DNA from: an uncultured Marivita sp.
Lineage (GTDB): Bacteria; Pseudomonadota; Alphaproteobacteria; Rhodobacterales; Rhodobacteraceae
Direction: 5' to 3'
NCBI RefSeq assembly: GCF_947488135.1
Contig: NZ_CANKYW010000003.1
Coordinates: forward strand, 248,001 to 312,000
DNA: 64,000 nt
The notes beneath the pieces are model-generated. The model was given only the letters and a program-made list of their open reading frames with translations, had not been told where the DNA came from and made no database searches. Positions 41,915 through 48,243 of the stretch are shown here, one piece after another (the first letter of the stretch is position 1; each line of letters starts with the position of its first letter). A program made the translations under genes and the position numbers.

Positions 41915-42376
41915 ATGGACATCGTCGAACCACACCCCTCTCGTGTTATTTCATTGTTCCGAGCGCTGCACACTTTCCATGCGGAATTGTCGCCCGGGAT
42001 GTATCACTGCGACGGAACCGACGCGGACTACCAGACAATCCTTGAAAACATCTGCGCCGGTGGAGGGCGTATCTTCGCGCATGATGACGGTTGGGGCTTG
42101 GTGTCCTATGTCCTTGCACGACCCGATGTTTTGCCACGCACCGCCATGCGCTGTGAAAGGCGTCTCTTGGTGATCGAGCATTTCTATGTCGCCCCCGTTG
42201 TCCGTGGCATGGGGTTGGGTCGGCAACTGATCGCGCGCGTCGAGGACTGGGTGCGGGATCTGGGTCTCGACGGATGGCATCTGACGCACCACGCCAGCAA
42301 TTCCGACGCAGAACGTTTTTACCGCTCTGTTGGAGCCGAACCTAAGATCAGTGTCAGCGTCAAATCGGTCGTCTGA
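41915..42376 (+). CDS. GNAT family N-acetyltransferase
   Basis: This encodes 153 aa. The acetyl-CoA-binding motif A is clear in IEHFYVAPVVRGMGLGRQLIARVEDWVRDLG, with R/Q-x-x-G-x-G/A (RGMGLG). The preceding strand and the ending SNSDAERFYRSVGAEPK match the fold. Acceptor unknown. The ribosome site lies inside the efp terminator stem; a TTG three bases upstream could also serve as start. Confidence 0.82.
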   Translation: MDIVEPHPSRVISLFRALHTFHAELSPGMYHCDGTDADYQTILENICAGGGRIFAHDDGWGLVSYVLARPDVLPRTAMRCERRLLVIEHFYVAPVVRGMGLGRQLIARVEDWVRDLGLDGWHLTHHASNSDAERFYRSVGAEPKISVSVKSVV

Positions 42377-42382
42377 GACAGG

Positions 42383-43117
42383 CTAGACCGGATACCTGAC
42401 AACCGCGTCGCCCGCCGCCAAATCGCCGGTGGCGCGGTCAAACCGCAGATAGGCAAGGCCCTTGCCGCCCGCCTGCGTATAGAGCGTCCCGGCTGGTTTG
42501 CCATCTACCAGAATTTCCGTCCCCACGGGGACAGGAGAACTCACACGGACCTGCGCCAAACCCTTGCGCAGTTCGGTCTTGTGCTTCATCCGCGCCGTGA
42601 CTTCCTGCCCAACATAGCAGCCCTTGCGGAAATCCACGCCGTTCAACCGCTCGAACCCCATTTCGAGAATGAAACTGTCCGGCGTCAGTTCGACACCACT
42701 TTCCGGCACGATGGCCTCCACGCGCAGCGCGTCCCAATCGACGTCCTGATCTCCCGGTTGTCCATCGTAGCCGCGCCAGCCCAAAGTCGGATCGCGCGGA
42801 TCGGCAAAGGCACCGTCGGGGATATCGCCGAGCCCACGCGTGACGGTGCGATCGGTGTCTTCGATCTCTACGGCAGAGCGCAGTTTATACATCATGAGCG
42901 CCTGCTTCAGTCCGCCCGCCAAGGGCGTGGCCACGTCCAGGAGAGTGTCTGTCCCCATGGGGACAAGAAAGAAATCAGCGCGATACTTGCCCTGCGGCGT
43001 GAGCATGGCGGTGTAGACAAGCCCCTGATCGAGTCGCTCGACATCGTTGGTGACAAGCCCTTGCAGGAAGTGCCGCGCGTCCGCTCCGCTGATCCTCAGA
43101 ACCGTTCGATCCGTCAT
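42383..43117 (-). CDS. ygfZ: YgfZ/GcvT-like folate-dependent Fe-S protein factor
   Basis: This encodes 244 aa. The family motif KGCYVGQEVTARM near residue 170 (with the conserved Cys) and the opening DRTVLRISGADARHFLQGLVTNDVERLDQ identify the YgfZ/CAF17 group, which binds tetrahydrofolate and helps repair or assemble certain [4Fe-4S] enzymes. Length is that of the short alphaproteobacterial form. It lies 59 bases after the DoxX gene of the bufferin operon and on the same strand; no terminator is seen between them. Confidence 0.9.
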   Translation of the reverse strand: MTDRTVLRISGADARHFLQGLVTNDVERLDQGLVYTAMLTPQGKYRADFFLVPMGTDTLLDVATPLAGGLKQALMMYKLRSAVEIEDTDRTVTRGLGDIPDGAFADPRDPTLGWRGYDGQPGDQDVDWDALRVEAIVPESGVELTPDSFILEMGFERLNGVDFRKGCYVGQEVTARMKHKTELRKGLAQVRVSSPVPVGTEILVDGKPAGTLYTQAGGKGLAYLRFDRATGDLAAGDAVVRYPV

Positions 43118-43176
43118 GTCGCCCCCTGACTGTGTTCCCGCCAGAGATAACGGTCATGTGCCGGGGTACAAGGGGG

Positions 43177-43749
43177 TTACACCGTGGCCGGATCACCCAA
43201 GACCTGCCGCGACAGGATCCGGTCGAGCGACAACGCGCCTGCGCCTTTGATGACAAGGGTGATCAGGATCAGCATCCAGAACGCCCGCTGGTCGAGGATC
43301 GCGCTGTCCGGGATCCGGTCGAACCATGCTCCAAGCGTTTCGGCGTGGGCGATGCCGCCGTGACCGTAGAGGTCGGTCAGGGATTGCACCACGACGAAGC
43401 CGATCATTCCCAAGGCGGCCAAGCGGGTGAAGAGGCCGATCACGATCAGCAGCGGCAGGATGAATTCCGCCCAGGTTCCCGCGACGACAACGGCCCAGTG
43501 GAAAACACCCAGTTGCGACACGTCGTAGACAACAGCTTCCATCTGGCGGGGGAAGATCTGCGCATAGGCCCCGGTCGAGGGCACGAAGATGCCCGTAATC
43601 CCGTCGCCAAGCTTGGTCATGGCCGAAGACCAGAAATAGACCAGCAGCGTTGCGGCAAAGACGAAACGGGCCAGCAGCGGAACAAGGCCCGAAAGCGATC
43701 TCTCGATCGTCGAGAATACCGAAGAATGAAGGAAAACGAGACGGTCCAT
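43177..43749 (-). CDS. bufD: DoxX-family membrane protein of the bufferin operon
   Basis: This encodes 190 aa with four hydrophobic spans (LLARFVFAATLLVYFWSS, FHWAVVVAGTWAEFILPLLIVIGLF, LAALGMIGFVVVQSL, AFWMLILITLVIKGAG), the DoxX layout. DoxX proteins regularly accompany DUF692/DUF2063 genes in bufferin-type operons, where one is called BufD; its job in maturation or export is not settled. ATG 43749 has a GGAAAG site, and the gene follows bufC after 27 bases. Confidence 0.82.
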   Translation of the reverse strand: MDRLVFLHSSVFSTIERSLSGLVPLLARFVFAATLLVYFWSSAMTKLGDGITGIFVPSTGAYAQIFPRQMEAVVYDVSQLGVFHWAVVVAGTWAEFILPLLIVIGLFTRLAALGMIGFVVVQSLTDLYGHGGIAHAETLGAWFDRIPDSAILDQRAFWMLILITLVIKGAGALSLDRILSRQVLGDPATV

Positions 43750-43776
43750 GATGTGATCTTTCCGGTTAACGATTTG

Positions 43777-44511
43777 TTAATAATTCAGCGCGGTTATGGC
43801 GTTTCGCGAAAGAAGAACGTTCAGAAGCATCGCAAGGTCGAACCGGTCATCCGCCGTTTCGATGGCGGACCCGAACGGCGTCTGGGATTGCAGCGCGATC
43901 ACCACATCCGCAGCAGCCGCCCCGAGGATGACCGGCTCCGGGTCGTACTCGGACCGCAGGATCAGCACGTCCTCGCCGTTGCCGGTTGGTTTGGGACCTT
44001 GGCGCAGCGTGTAATGCCAGATCGACCCGATGGGCCATTTCGAGCGAACAAGGATCATCGATGGAGCGAAACCGAACCGCGAGTTCAAAAGCGTGTTTTC
44101 GTCAAGCGCCTGCAAGTCGGCCGGGTCGATCCCGGCGCTGTCCGCCGCGTGATAGCTTTGGCGCATGGCCACGTCGATCCGTGCGACATCGGCAAGATAG
44201 GGCAGGGGGGCAAGCTGTTCGACCGTTGCGAGGAAATCGGGAAACTCCGCGCCGTAATGCATCATCAGGGGCGAGCCTGGCGGCGATTGCCGCAGAAAGG
44301 CGCGGGCAAGGTGATCGAAATTCTCGCGCCCGATCAGACCGACGATGGACGGGAAGCCTTCGGCCAGAGCCTCTCGAAGGGACACGGTGACATTGTTGCG
44401 ATAGACGCCGTAGCGCCGTCCCGCGGGTCGGTTCTGACCGTCCGTGAGGCCCGCAGGGATCGGGGCGGTCGGGCTCAGAAGCCCCGCGTGAAAGGCGCTC
44501 TGGTCGGTCAC
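43777..44511 (-). CDS. bufC: DUF2063 partner protein of the MNIO enzyme
   Basis: This encodes 244 aa from GTG 44511, overlapping the bufB stop by 4 bases; the open frame to 44592 is inside bufB. The N-terminal [58 protein letters not shown] is the DUF2063 helical domain, followed by a beta-rich region. DUF2063 proteins are the RRE-like or scaffold partners of DUF692 (MNIO) enzymes and probably bring the precursor peptide to the active site. Confidence 0.88.
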
Positions 44512-45365
44512 GCCAGCGCCCGGGTCAGCGCGGCTTCGGCGCGGCGCGCCTCGTCGGCCAAGACGGGCCAGTCGGGCACGTCGGTGTCCCATTCCACCAG
44601 CACAGGCCTGGGACCCGACTTGTCGAGCGTGAAATCCAGCAGCGCCCAGACCGGGTCGACAACCTCGCGACCGTGGCTGTCGATCAGCAGGGGGGCGCCG
44701 TGATCGTCTTCATCTTCGTCATGGCCGCCAAGATGGATTTCCCCGACAGCGTCAAGCGGATATGTGTCAATATAGCCTTGGGGCGAATAGTCGAGATTGG
44801 TGGCCGACACGAAGACGTTGTTCACGTCGAGCAACAACCCGCAGCCGGTGCGGCGCACGATCTCGGCCAGAAAATCGGTCTCGGACCATATGCTTTCGGT
44901 GAAGGCCAGATAGGAAGACGGGTTTTCCAGCAGCATCCGACGGCCCAGCACGGATTGAACTTCGTCGATGTGATCCGCGACGCGGGTCAGCGTGTCATCT
45001 GTGTAGGGCAGCGGCAGCAGGTCATTGAGGAAATGGCTGTCATGGGTGGACCATGCCAGGTGCTCGGAAAAGCTGGCTGGATTGAGCCAGTCGCAGAGGT
45101 GTTTCAGCCGGGCAAGGTGGTCCGGGTCCAGACGGGCTTCGCCGCCGATGGACAGACCAACGCCGTGAACGGAGATCGGGAAACGCTCGGCCAGTGCCCG
45201 CAGTTGCGCGAGCGGTCGACCGCCGTCGCCCATGTAATTTTCGGCATGGATTTCCAGCCAACCCACGGGGGATGGATCGTTCAGGATGTCCGTGAAATGC
45301 TGCGGCTTGTAGCCGACGCCCGGTCGGGAGGGCAAAGCCGGGAAGGCATGTGAGGCGTCAGGCAT
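44508..45365 (-). CDS. bufB: DUF692 multinuclear iron oxygenase (MNIO)
   Basis: This encodes 285 aa, a TIM-barrel. The metal ligands are visible in the conserved segments [51 protein letters not shown] and EIHLGGHDE, each carrying the H, E, D or N ligands of MNIO enzymes. These iron enzymes modify cysteines of RiPP precursors, forming for example oxazolone/thioamide or 5-thiooxazole groups. With the precursor gene bufA upstream and bufC overlapping by 4 bases, this is the modifying enzyme of the operon. Confidence 0.93.
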
Positions 45366-45381
45366 CGTCTTTTCCTTTTAT

Positions 45382-45445
45382 GTAGGCCGCGCCTGTGCCC
45401 GGCCTACGAGTTTTGATTGAGGAGGGCGGGACAGCGCCCGCCTCC
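45382..45445 (-). promoter_or_regulatory. Two hairpins between the precursor and MNIO genes
   Basis: GTAGGCCG (45382-45389) pairs with CGGCCTAC (45400-45407), and GGAGG-CGGG (45421-45430) pairs with CCCGCCTCC (45437-45445) with one bulged base. Both lie within the 84-base gap after bufA and lack long T-runs. They may stabilise the bufA mRNA or reduce expression of the enzyme genes relative to the precursor. Confidence 0.65.
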
Positions 45446-45449
45446 ACTT

Positions 45450-45755
45450 TTAACCTTGCGGCAGGTCGCGCTCGAGCTCTTCCAGCGAACCCATGCGCTC
45501 TGACCCATCGGCCATGGCAGGCAGCTCGATTTCCGTGCAGGTGCCTGCATCGACCAGCGTCCAGGCATTGCCCTGATAATCGACGGTTGACGTACCTGCG
45601 CAGGTCGTGCCGGGGCCGGCTGCGCAGTCATTCTGACCGGCGAGGGACACACCGAAACACTTTTCTTTTGCTTGTGCCGAGGCAGTTGTGGTGTGCGCGG
45701 CGAGGCTTGCGGCAACGGCACCGACGAGGGCAACGGTTTTGATGGCTTTCGACAT
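45450..45755 (-). CDS. bufA: Bufferin-type RiPP precursor (DUF2282)
   Basis: This encodes 101 aa from ATG 45755 with an AAGGA site; the longer frame to 45875 is unlikely. Residues 1-27 are a signal peptide ([20 protein letters not shown], cleavage after ASA). The mature protein has exactly four cysteines (33, 44, 52, 73) in the DUF2282 pattern [23 protein letters not shown] and AGTCTEI. Such precursors are modified at cysteines by the DUF692 enzyme and exported to the periplasm, where bufferins are reported to bind copper. A long acidic C-terminal tail ([13 protein letters not shown]) is unlike the compact family core. Confidence 0.9.
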
Positions 45756-45835
45756 GAGGATGGTCCTTTTTGATAACTTGAACGTTTGAACTGGGTCGAC
45801 GGAGCGTCCGCCACGTCGATGTATCAACCATGCCC

Positions 45836-45886
45836 CGCGACAGGCTGTCGCGCTACTCACGGCGATGTGTGTCACGCGTGCGTGAC
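45836..45886 (-). promoter_or_regulatory. Two inverted repeats in the bufA promoter region
   Basis: GTCACGC-GT-GCGTGAC (45871-45886) is a perfect 7-2-7 inverted repeat and CGCGACAG-G-CTGTCGCG (45836-45852) a perfect 8-1-8 repeat. They lie 116-131 and 81-97 bases before the bufA start and could be an operator and a leader hairpin. No sigma-factor or regulator gene is found next to the operon. Confidence 0.55.
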
Positions 45887-45936
45887 GTTAGGTGAGGCTC
45901 GTTTTTGCGAATTCTTTAATGGTTTCAGTAAAATAG

Positions 45937-45967
45937 AAAAGGCCCCGTAACAAAACGGGGCCCTTTT
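45937..45967 (-). terminator. Terminator after thrS
   Basis: On the reverse strand an 11-12-bp stem (with one bulged base) around ACGGGGCCCTTTT (45955-45967) and AAAAGGCCCCGT (45937-45948) is followed by TTTTCTATTTT. It ends thrS just before the bufA promoter region. Confidence 0.82.
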
Positions 45968-45989
45968 GAAAGTTTCCAGTGCTGGAATG

Positions 45990-47936
45990 TTACAGCAGAT
46001 CGGGCGGAGTCGCCTCTTTTCCAAGGCTGCTCACGATCTCGGTCAGCGATGTTACAGAGGTCTGTTTCTCGCCAAGACGCCGCACGGTGACCGTGCGTTC
46101 CTCGACTTCGCGATGGCCGATGGCGAGGATGACCGGAACCTTGCCGACGCTGTGTTCGCGAACCTTGTAGTTGATCTTTTCGTTGCGAATGTCGGCCTCG
46201 GCGCGCACGCCGGCCTTGGTCAGTTCCGCGACGACCTCATGCACATAGTCATCCGCCTCGGACACGATGGAGGCCACGACGACCTGACGCGGGGCCAGCC
46301 AGAAGGGCAGCTTGCCGGAATGTTCCTCGATCAGGATGCCGATAAACCGCTCGAAGCTGCCCAAAGTCGCCCGGTGCAGCATGACCGGTCGATGCTTGGC
46401 CCCGTCCTGACCGATATAGGTGGCGTCCAACCGTTCCGGCAGCACGAAATCCACTTGGTGTGTGCCGCACTGCCAGTCGCGTCCGATCGCATCGGTCAGA
46501 ACGAATTCCAGTTTCGGTCCGTAGAACGCGCCTTCACCGGGGTTCAGCTCGAACTCGCAACCTGCGGCAATCGTAGCGGCCTTGAGGGCTGCTTCGGCAC
46601 GATCCCAGACCTCGTCCGATCCGGCACGGGTTTCGGGGCGATCCGAGAATTTGACCTTGAAGTTTTCAAAGCCGAGGTCGCGGTAGATTTCTGATAGGAA
46701 GTCGATAAAGCGTTTTGTTTCATCTTCGATCTGGTCCTCTCTACAGAAAATATGGCCGTCATCCTGGGTGAACCCGCGCACGCGCATGATGCCGTGCAGG
46801 GCCCCGGAGGGTTCATATCTATTGCACGAGCCGAATTCGGCCATACGCAATGGAAGATCGCGGTAAGACTTTAACCCCTGGTTAAAAATCTGGACGTGGC
46901 AGGGGCAATTCATCGGCTTGAGCGCATTGACCGCCTTTTCGCGGGCGTGGTCCTCGTCGACTTCGACGATGAACATATGCTCCTGGTACTTTTCCCAGTG
47001 CCCTGACGCTTCCCACAGCTTTCGGTCGACCACTTGTGGGGTGTTCACCTCGACATAGCCGCCCGTGCGTTGCTTGCGGCGCATGTAGTCTTGCAATTCG
47101 GTGTAGACGCGCCAGCCATTTGGATGCCAGAAAATCTGGCCCGGTGCCTCTTCCTGCATGTGAAAGAGATCCATCTCGCGGCCGAGGCGGCGATGGTCGC
47201 GCTTGTCGGCCTCTTCGAGGAAGGTCAGGTATTTCTTCAGGTCGTCGCGGTTCTTGAACGCCACGCCGTAGATGCGTTGCAGCATAGGGCGGCTGTTGTC
47301 GCCAAGGAAATAGGCGGCACTGACGTTCATCAGCTTGAACGCGTCGGCCGGCACTTGGCCGGTGTGCTGGAGGTGCGGGCCACGGCACAGGTCCATCCAG
47401 TCGCCGTGCCAATACATGCGAATGTCTTCGCCCTCGGGGATCTTGTCGAGGATTTCGACCTTATAGGGCTCGTTGTTGTCGGTGTAGTACTGGCGCACTT
47501 TTTCGCGCGACCACAGTTCGGTCCGCACGGCGTCGCGGGCATTGATGATCTCTTTCATCCGCTTCTCGATCGCGCCAAGGTCTTCCGGCGTGAACGGCTC
47601 TTCCCGGTCGAAATCGTAGAACCAGCCATTGTCGCGCACCGGGCCGATGGTGACTTTGACGTCGGGCCAGATCTCCTGCACCGCGCGCGCCATGATGTGC
47701 GCAAGGTCGTGCCGTATCAGCTCGAGCGCGGGTGCGTCGTCCTGCATCGTGTTGATGGCGATCTGCGCGTTGTCCTGGATCGGCCATTGCAGATCCCAGT
47801 GCGCGCCATTCACCGTGGCGGAGATGGCTTTCTTGGAGAGCGATTTGGAAATGCTCTCGGCAACCTCGGCAGGGGTCACACCCTTGTTGAAATCGCGCGC
47901 ATTGCCATCGGGGAAGGTCAGGGAAATCTGGCTCAT
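45990..47936 (-). CDS. thrS: Threonyl-tRNA synthetase
   Basis: This encodes 648 aa, the normal length, with a GAGGAG site. All parts are visible in order: the TGS domain ([33 protein letters not shown]), the editing domain with [16 protein letters not shown] and [13 protein letters not shown], the class II core with [31 protein letters not shown], and the anticodon domain ending [15 protein letters not shown]. It charges tRNA-Thr. No T-box-like leader is visible upstream. Confidence 0.98.
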
Positions 47937-48243
47937 CGGCCTAGCTCCTCGTCAGTTTGGCGCCCACGGAACGCCCGGTTGCGGGTTATGTATCGTGCGC
48001 GGCTTTTGGCAGGGGGGGCGCAGGACGTCAAGACAGAGCGGGCCCGAAACGACGGGTGAGTCGGGGGTTTTGCACATGGCCGCGAAATATTCTTGCGCGG
48101 TATACCAATGTATTATTGGGAAGCGTTTATAAACAAAGGGTTATAATTCTGGTTCCCTATGGACGAAAGCGACGTAATTGCTATGTATAGCGACATTCCA
48201 ATATCGGAAACTTTTTGCGTCACGCAGCACGGGGGAGCAGGCC
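47937..48243. other. 307-base divergent region, AT-rich part, no gene
   Basis: It should hold the thrS promoter (left) and that of the small gene at 48244 (right). From about 48085 to 48225 it is clearly AT-richer than its surroundings, and CCAAT (48105-48109) with ATTGG (48115-48119) form a 5-5-5 inverted repeat. No reading frame with a ribosome site is seen. Confidence 0.6.

Follow-up and report, generated by a model that had tools for sequence, protein, structure and literature searches.

Which regulator controls a bufferin operon in a genome without NrsF, when sigma-F/NrsF is the only regulator named for bufferins in the parts of the literature considered? The question is raised by a stretch of 64,000 nucleotides from an uncultured Marivita sp. 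(NCBI RefSeq assembly GCF_947488135.1, contig NZ_CANKYW010000003.1, positions 248,001 to 312,000; hereafter the window), in which four genes, bufA, bufB, bufC and doxX, run on the minus strand from 45755 to 43177. The initial annotation had recognised this operon from the sequence, without giving its strand. The operon is of the known Buf1 bufferin kind. What appears to be new is a pair of tandem boxes upstream of bufA, through which it is probably activated by the response regulator CenR, and the apparent replacement of sigma-F/NrsF control by these boxes. The four genes are the following.

45453..45755, minus strand: bufA, Buf1 bufferin precursor (DUF2282) with an ATG start, 101 residues; identified by Pfam DUF2282, a 73-sequence alignment and tail conservation
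44508..45365, minus strand: bufB, bufferin maturase of the multinuclear iron oxygenase (MNIO) family, 285 residues; identified by NCBIfam NF050167, metal-ligand-type residues and alignment to solved MNIO structures
43777..44511, minus strand: bufC, PME-type 1 partner (DUF2063) with a GTG start, 244 residues; identified by Pfam and an AlphaFold2 model
43177..43749, minus strand: doxX, DoxX membrane protein, 190 residues; identified by Pfam and by its place downstream of the bufferin genes in relatives

Tandem boxes upstream of bufA

Expectation-maximisation on 178 non-redundant upstream regions (of 190) yielded a single 30-bp element, TgACGc...CGTGA..CACGg.C.CGTGA, of 29 bits and with about 138 expected sites in the 178 regions. 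It is composed of two 14-bp dyads, T(C/G)ACG-N4-CGTGA, 15 bp apart, and has its median start about -113 from the ATG. The window's copy of this double element, which was absent from the initial annotation, is TCACGCACGCGTGACACACATCGCCGTGA (45885-45857). Downstream of the last CGTGA, the promoters share TGG and then, 29-35 nt on, a -10-like cTAnnTT (142 promoters).

45872..45885, minus strand: distal CenR-like box TCACGCACGCGTGA, from the de novo motif and its likeness to published CenR sites
45857..45870, minus strand: proximal CenR-like box ACACATCGCCGTGA, with GTAG after it; from the motif that also gave the distal box, at a period of 15 bp
45826..45832, minus strand: position of the -10-like cTAnnTT (columns 29-35 after the last CGTGA), with the weak version CATGGTT in the window

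A threshold of 15 bits was used to call boxes, with a matrix trained on the same upstream regions that it scored; it was exceeded by 1 of 3,800 first-order Markov-simulated regions, 75 of 110 same-family regions and 70 of 79 RefSeq regions. The double pattern without mismatches occurs once in the 4.47-Mb genome, and with two mismatches allowed it gives 22 hits versus 8 for a reversed control. The exact double pattern is present in 36 of 120 same-family genomes (own included), one copy each, while the reversed pattern is found in none of the 120. Thirty of these hits were returned as loci, with 27 of them placed 190-229 nt upstream of the CxGV codon in bufA; among the six hits without a locus, four adjoin known bufA coordinates and two could not be placed.

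Two further structures were noted between the boxes and the gene. A perfect 8+8 palindrome, CGCGACAG-C-CTGTCGCG (45836-45852, minus strand), is located between the boxes and the -10 position, with similar sequences seen by eye in a few Marivita-like relatives. An inverted repeat, TCGACG...CGTCGA (45796-45819, minus strand), falls in the likely 5' leader of bufA, where other short inverted repeats were seen by eye in some relatives.

Boxes and sigma-F/NrsF across related loci

In Caulobacter, the bufferin operon is controlled by sigma-F with its anti-sigma partner NrsF, through the consensus GTAACC-N16-CGAA (PMC3511200). No NrsF was found in the window's genome (a sigma-F gene elsewhere in that genome was not sought), an absence that the initial annotation had not noted, and the stretch 46000-45740 contains no GTAAC-N16-18-CG(A/T) promoter. 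For a wider comparison 180 loci were classified: 160 with flanks of about 3.5 or 6 kb, or less where a contig ended sooner, and 20 refetched ones, 19 of which had been picked for lacking a box in their short versions. Boxes precede bufA in 132 of the 156 unpicked related loci with more than 1.5 kb upstream. Seven loci without 1.5 kb on each side were dropped, and boxes were counted against NrsF in the remaining 173. None of the 130 double-box loci has NrsF or the sigma factor nearby; 21 of the 43 box-less loci, 19 of which had been picked for lacking boxes, have both. Fifteen of these 21 come from the picked loci and six from the 24 unpicked box-less ones. Pfam searches on one example each confirmed NrsF (161 bits) and Sigma70 regions 2 and 4. 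A Fisher test of box versus NrsF (p = 2e-15) is given no weight here, since the loci share ancestry and were partly picked.

In 19 of the 21 sigma-F loci there is a sigma-F-type promoter, GTAAC-N16-18-CG(A/T), within -167 to -208 relative to the CxGV codon. A match anywhere in 340 nt was found in 12 of the 130 box loci and none of these falls in the -167 to -208 range, although one locus (L209) has a match at -210 that overlaps the box; 2 of the 22 loci with neither boxes nor NrsF have such a promoter. A looser dyad, CAC-N6-GTG, occurs in 18 of the 21 sigma-F loci; 16 loci have both this dyad and the promoter, and in 15 of these the dyad stops 4-6 bp short of GTAAC. In the class set (described below), 12 of 48 regions show the loose dyad and 18 of 48 a loose GTAAC promoter. 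The 99 % null threshold of a stricter proximal-box matrix was passed by 125 of 130 box loci, by 1 of 21 sigma-F loci and, among the 22 loci lacking both boxes and NrsF, by 8.

On a BufB tree (FastTree, 210 rows), box versus sigma-F amounts to 2 changes among 149 rows, and box versus everything else to 16. One replacement explains the contrast between boxes and sigma-F, with the exception of L307, while the boxes themselves have been lost or degraded more often. L307 stands amid box-bearing rows of the tree, yet has NrsF and the sigma factor instead of boxes, with thrS ending about 1.5 kb before its CxGV codon. All 10 loci with a short BufA tail (see below) are on the no-box side, and thrS is directly upstream in 112 of 133 box-bearing loci. 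The direction, from sigma-F to boxes, is suggested by the other families that adjoin the sigma-F rows, the tree method itself inferring no root. There is somewhat better than an even chance that in the Roseobacter-type lineage, a marine group, the operon moved once from a metal-stress ECF sigma factor (sigma-F/NrsF) to CenKR. The ancestral promoter would have carried a single CenR-like dyad, some 5 bp ahead of the sigma-F -35, and would then have lost its sigma-F elements and gained a second box.

CenR as the candidate regulator

CenKR is an envelope two-component system, and the sites of CenR were mapped in Rhodobacter sphaeroides by chromatin immunoprecipitation sequencing and RNA sequencing (PMC9275681). 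Among the published sites in Table 1 of that paper are ACACGAGCGCGTGAG, from cenR itself, and TGACGCGGGCGTGAA, from an L,D-transpeptidase, both of which are the same element as the bufA box. Both window boxes match the CenR pattern T(C/G)AC(G/A)-N4-(C/T)GTGA, and the consensus of the 31 published sites follows the distal box. A matrix of the distal box scored 15 of these 31 sites above 5 bits (16 not), versus 0.095 % of shuffles. The geometry of the bufA boxes suggests a place upstream of the -35, as at 28 of the 31 published sites, which lie directly upstream of it (PMC9275681). From the sequence evidence we infer that bufA is probably under the control of CenR.

A single box, T(C/G)AC(A/G)-N4-CGTGA, gave 42 strand hits at 37 places in the genome versus 12 for the reversed control, 22 of the places being inside genes and 15 outside (crude open reading frame calling). 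A separate single-box search gave 6 hits versus 0 for the reversed control, three of them within genes. Apart from that at bufA, five of the 15 intergenic boxes precede genes for an outer membrane beta-barrel (L314/L360; box at G000:C4:215947-215960), a protein of metallo-beta-lactamase fold that seems to have a signal peptide (L337), a Cache-HisKA kinase (L348), a DsbA-like protein (L352) and a periplasmic binding protein (L359); the remaining nine places are L350, L354, L357, L358, L364, L367, L368, L369 and L371. Among the same-genus loci in which the start of the beta-barrel gene was recognised, all 14 (own included) have the dyad at -205 to -214; three more same-genus and two other-genus loci in this survey lack a recognised start. 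Three of the box targets are of kinds that also occur in the published regulon, namely the beta-barrel (cf. RSP_2718), the metallo-beta-lactamase-fold protein (cf. RSP_1834) and an L,D-transpeptidase at L261 (cf. RSP_1199). In L261, from another genus, a double box (1501-1529) is located upstream of a YkuD L,D-transpeptidase gene, and the 3-kb locus contains no bufA. The single box at L350 (G000:C2:16108) overlaps the start of a gene that by eye resembles a ChrR-type anti-sigma factor.

Gene identities and operon layout

The families named in the initial annotation were recovered for all four genes, which lie within 43177-45755 in the order first described. Pfam scores (cut-offs in brackets) were 86.6 bits for DUF2282 (22.4), 345.7 for MbnB_TglH_ChrH (25), 83.8 for DUF2063 (27.2) and 28.1 for DoxX (23.6). 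Among the NCBIfam models, BufB matches the MNIO_BufB equivalog NF050167 with 371.8 bits against a cut-off of 310, BufA has no match, and BufC and DoxX match the HvfC and HvfX models far under the cut-offs. The 4-nt overlap of bufC and bufB also proved correct: GTGA is common to the bufC start and the bufB stop. Family scores, the fold of BufC and the gene set together place the operon in the Buf1 type, in agreement with the bufferin assignment made at the outset. The genome contains one DUF2282 gene and one MNIO gene, and the closest BufA among the named-genome matches listed, with 93 % identity, is that of a Marivita metagenome-assembled genome.

The gene layout cannot be ascribed to chance: of the related loci found via bufA, all 175 that extend more than 2.2 kb downstream have bufB and bufC following it, and 102 of the 103 that extend more than 3.5 kb have doxX as well. 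Apparent cases of missing doxX or thrS were an artefact of loci only about 3 kb long, and the absence of doxX disappeared once 20 loci had been refetched at about 10-12 kb. Two loci (L160, L163) each have two bufA-like reading frames. The surroundings of the operon are as follows.

47936-45990, minus strand: thrS, upstream of bufA
45937..45966, minus strand: Rho-independent terminator-like hairpin with a 12-bp stem, after thrS and separating it from bufA
43117-42383, minus strand: CAF17/GCV_T-like gene, downstream of doxX

As thrS is closed by this hairpin, the bufferin operon probably has a promoter of its own. The terminator scan gave 4 such sites versus a shuffle mean of 3.9, so that the call is based on stem and place. 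No Rfam family reached its gathering score within 42300-48000.

BufB and its partner BufC

BufB was aligned with 3bww, 8hci and 7dz9, all solved MNIO structures, and in an alignment of 210 rows (the window, 170 same-family loci and 39 class-set rows, L128 among the latter being same-family). Residues H67, H102, E147, H211, D229, H231 and E258 are kept in 210 of 210 rows and N182 in 209. These are positions that we take, from work on MbnB, to be the MNIO metal ligands, and the alignments to 3bww and 7dz9 agree with that placement. Together with the equivalog score, the kept residues bear out the initial assignment of BufB to the DUF692 iron oxygenases. The DUF2063 assignment of BufC holds in 58 of 58 aligned rows. 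Its AlphaFold2 model (predicted local distance difference test score, pLDDT, 94.7) has as its best matches in the Protein Data Bank TglI (8hci, 8hi7) and NGO1945 (3dee), both MNIO partners; it also matches MbnC, at weak E-values.

Cysteines and tail of BufA

BufA consists of a signal peptide (about residues 1-28, typical by eye), a core with Cys33, Cys44, Cys52 and Cys73, and a conserved tail (residues 74-101). The four cysteines are invariant in the 73-sequence alignment. It had been supposed that all four might be modified. This does not agree with the published work on Buf1, in which the two central cysteines are modified and a disulphide joins the outer two (PMC12452194). Several products of MNIO-PME1 pairs contain 5-thiooxazoles, with a shift of -4 Da per cysteine and absorbance at about 305 nm (PMC12668002). 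By analogy with the published Buf1 pattern, the analysis predicts that only C44 and C52 of BufA become thiooxazoles and that the outer pair C33-C73 is bonded as a disulphide. The predicted masses, -4 Da each at C44 and C52 and -2 Da for the disulphide (-10 Da in total), sharpen a test by mass spectrometry.

Conservation of the tail was assessed in three sets. The same-family set of 111 loci (own, the 30 best-scoring and 80 chosen down the list with some skipped) was drawn from 211 matching genomes of 295 and yields 113 distinct proteins. The RefSeq/GTDB set comprises 80 loci found by BufA similarity, hence close relatives, from which 9 duplicate proteins were dropped, and the class set comprises 49 distinct proteins of other families (1 duplicate dropped). 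A (R/K)D(L/I/V/M)(P/A) tail is present in 100 of the 113 same-family proteins, in 72 of 72 RefSeq/GTDB proteins and in 3 of 49 from other families. The 13 same-family proteins without it have short tails (10) or near variants (3; RDRP, RDKP and RDLE). In the 73-sequence alignment L78, P79, R87, G89, L91, R96 and D97 are invariant, and mean conservation is 0.80 for the tail (74-99), 0.93 for the core and 0.67 for the signal peptide. The tail is a signature of the same bacterial family, and by its sequence conservation is under constraint. Longer tails, of 43-61 residues past the last cysteine (family median 27) and with the RDLP motif inside, were seen in L014, L026, L144, L158, L165, L181, L184 and L200.

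The initial annotation had called this tail unusually acidic. The window's protein does stand at the acidic end of the family range, with a net acidic count past the last cysteine of 6 (72 relatives: median 4, range 1-7, 10 of 72 equal or exceed it) and, for residues 86-101, the stretch singled out at the start, of 3, which is the maximum (median 1, range -1 to 3, reached by 5 of 72). It has company there, and the family-wide conservation and these counts rule out a tail peculiar to this member. A supposed oddity has thus become a family signature.

Alternative explanations

Several observations weigh against CenR control and against the single replacement of sigma-F. Three of the 30 exact double hits returned as loci (L261, L281, L284) are away from bufA, and 33 of 166 long-tail loci and 10 of 10 short-tail loci fall under the box threshold. 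The window's putative -10 is weak. Most sigma-F loci had been picked, and the counts of boxes and sigma-F are not independent, because only 2 changes separate them on the BufB tree; the 16 changes against everything else indicate that the boxes also vary by themselves. In 20 of the 21 sigma-F loci the single dyad proposed as ancestral does not pass the stricter matrix, and 8 of the 22 loci without boxes or NrsF pass the single-proximal-box threshold, two of them barely. The 12 control hits and the share of single boxes inside genes point the same way. CenKR has been reported in Rhodobacterales among eight orders (PMC9275681), and a cenR gene in this genome is presumed from that report. Table 1 of the same paper contains no bufferin gene, and the terms 'copper', DUF692, DUF2282, DoxX and 'metal' are absent from its main text. 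Finally, the bufA boxes are nearly palindromic, whereas CenR is described there as binding direct repeats. Another dimeric regulator reading the same dyad, perhaps a direct copper sensor, might then control the operon. It would account for a metal response, as expected of a bufferin, for the greater strictness and palindromic character of the bufA boxes compared with most published CenR sites (on the bufA matrix, 16 of those 31 score 5 bits or less), and for a tandem arrangement with a 15-bp period that is not described for CenR in the parts of PMC9275681 considered. The likeness to CenR sites, including those of cenR and the L,D-transpeptidase, and the shared kinds of target argue against it, and the gene directly upstream of box-bearing bufA is thrS in 112 of 133 cases and not a regulator gene (the upstream side only was surveyed). 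Such a regulator is considered unlikely. Of two known regulators tried, ChvI was set aside because its reported consensus differs (TTGC-N3-GCAA), and PhaR/AniA was set aside on a consensus known in part only. No report of a link between CenKR and bufferins was found in the literature searched, which left most subscription journals outside its reach; in PMC10470753, on this CenR, copper refers to microscope grids.

Two further alternatives concern the product. BufB also matches the HvfB (233 bits) and MbnB (50.4 bits) models, as might be expected if its product belonged with oxazolin/HvfA or with methanobactin, the latter marked by an MbnB-type MNIO, an MbnC partner and the lack of a signal peptide. 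Both scores are under the respective cut-offs (360 and 325) while that for BufB is above its own, EGKCG repeats are lacking in the BufA sequence, and the precursor is a DUF2282 and the partner a DUF2063 protein, which makes such a product extremely improbable. The conserved tail of BufA may be a separate functional module, e.g., one at which BufB/BufC or DoxX docks, or an additional arm that binds metal. The seven invariant columns and a mean conservation above that of the signal peptide speak for it, although conservation is below that of the core. The tail contains neither Cys nor His, and 27 of 49 Buf1 proteins of other families likewise have a GSL-like motif. Since bufB, bufC and doxX accompany bufA in each of the 10 short-tail loci, the tail is not needed for the gene set. 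A structure model of BufA (pLDDT 58.8) was too poor to judge the tail, and a separate module is considered possible but rather doubtful.

Proposed mechanism and significance

Activation of the Buf1 operon by CenR through the two tandem boxes is the reading preferred here. By analogy with characterised Buf1 systems, BufB with its partner BufC would oxidise C44 and C52 of cytoplasmic BufA to 5-thiooxazoles, Sec would export the modified protein, the C33-C73 disulphide would form, and mature BufA would chelate copper in the periplasm, with DoxX as a putative accessory membrane protein. Transcription would do without the sigma-F/NrsF switch of Caulobacter. CenR would most likely bind the two boxes just upstream of the -35 and activate the promoter, and the bufferin would be made within an envelope-stress programme.

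A conserved operator that across a large bacterial group occurs almost only at bufA provides a named regulator to test, and the CenR-like boxes would link copper trapping to envelope stress. The locus also offers a traceable case of regulatory replacement in an operon for a ribosomally synthesised and post-translationally modified peptide. If the reading is true, bufferins in the Roseobacter-type lineage would be general envelope guardians and CenKR would gain a metal-homeostasis arm.

Comparison with known systems

The Buf1 operon of Caulobacter vibrioides and its relatives has the same core genes as the window, i.e., a four-cysteine DUF2282 precursor, a BufB equivalog, a DUF2063 partner and DoxX (PMC12452194). 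It differs in its control by sigma-F/NrsF (PMC3511200), for which the window's genome lacks NrsF and, at 46000-45740, the GTAAC-N16-18-CG(A/T) promoter, carrying two CenR-like boxes instead; the long conserved RDLP tail of the window BufA is a further difference. Captophorins, or oxazolin (HvfABC), and fontiphorin (PMC12668002) share with the window an MNIO with a PME1 partner and thiooxazoles on cysteines, the latter predicted for BufA. The window BufA is distinguished from these by its lack of EGKCG repeats and belongs to another precursor family. The CenKR regulon of R. sphaeroides (PMC9275681) differs in having no bufferin gene in its Table 1, whereas the window has two boxes in tandem. 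It resembles the window in the sequence of the box, in its likely place upstream of the -35 and in co-targets of the envelope type.

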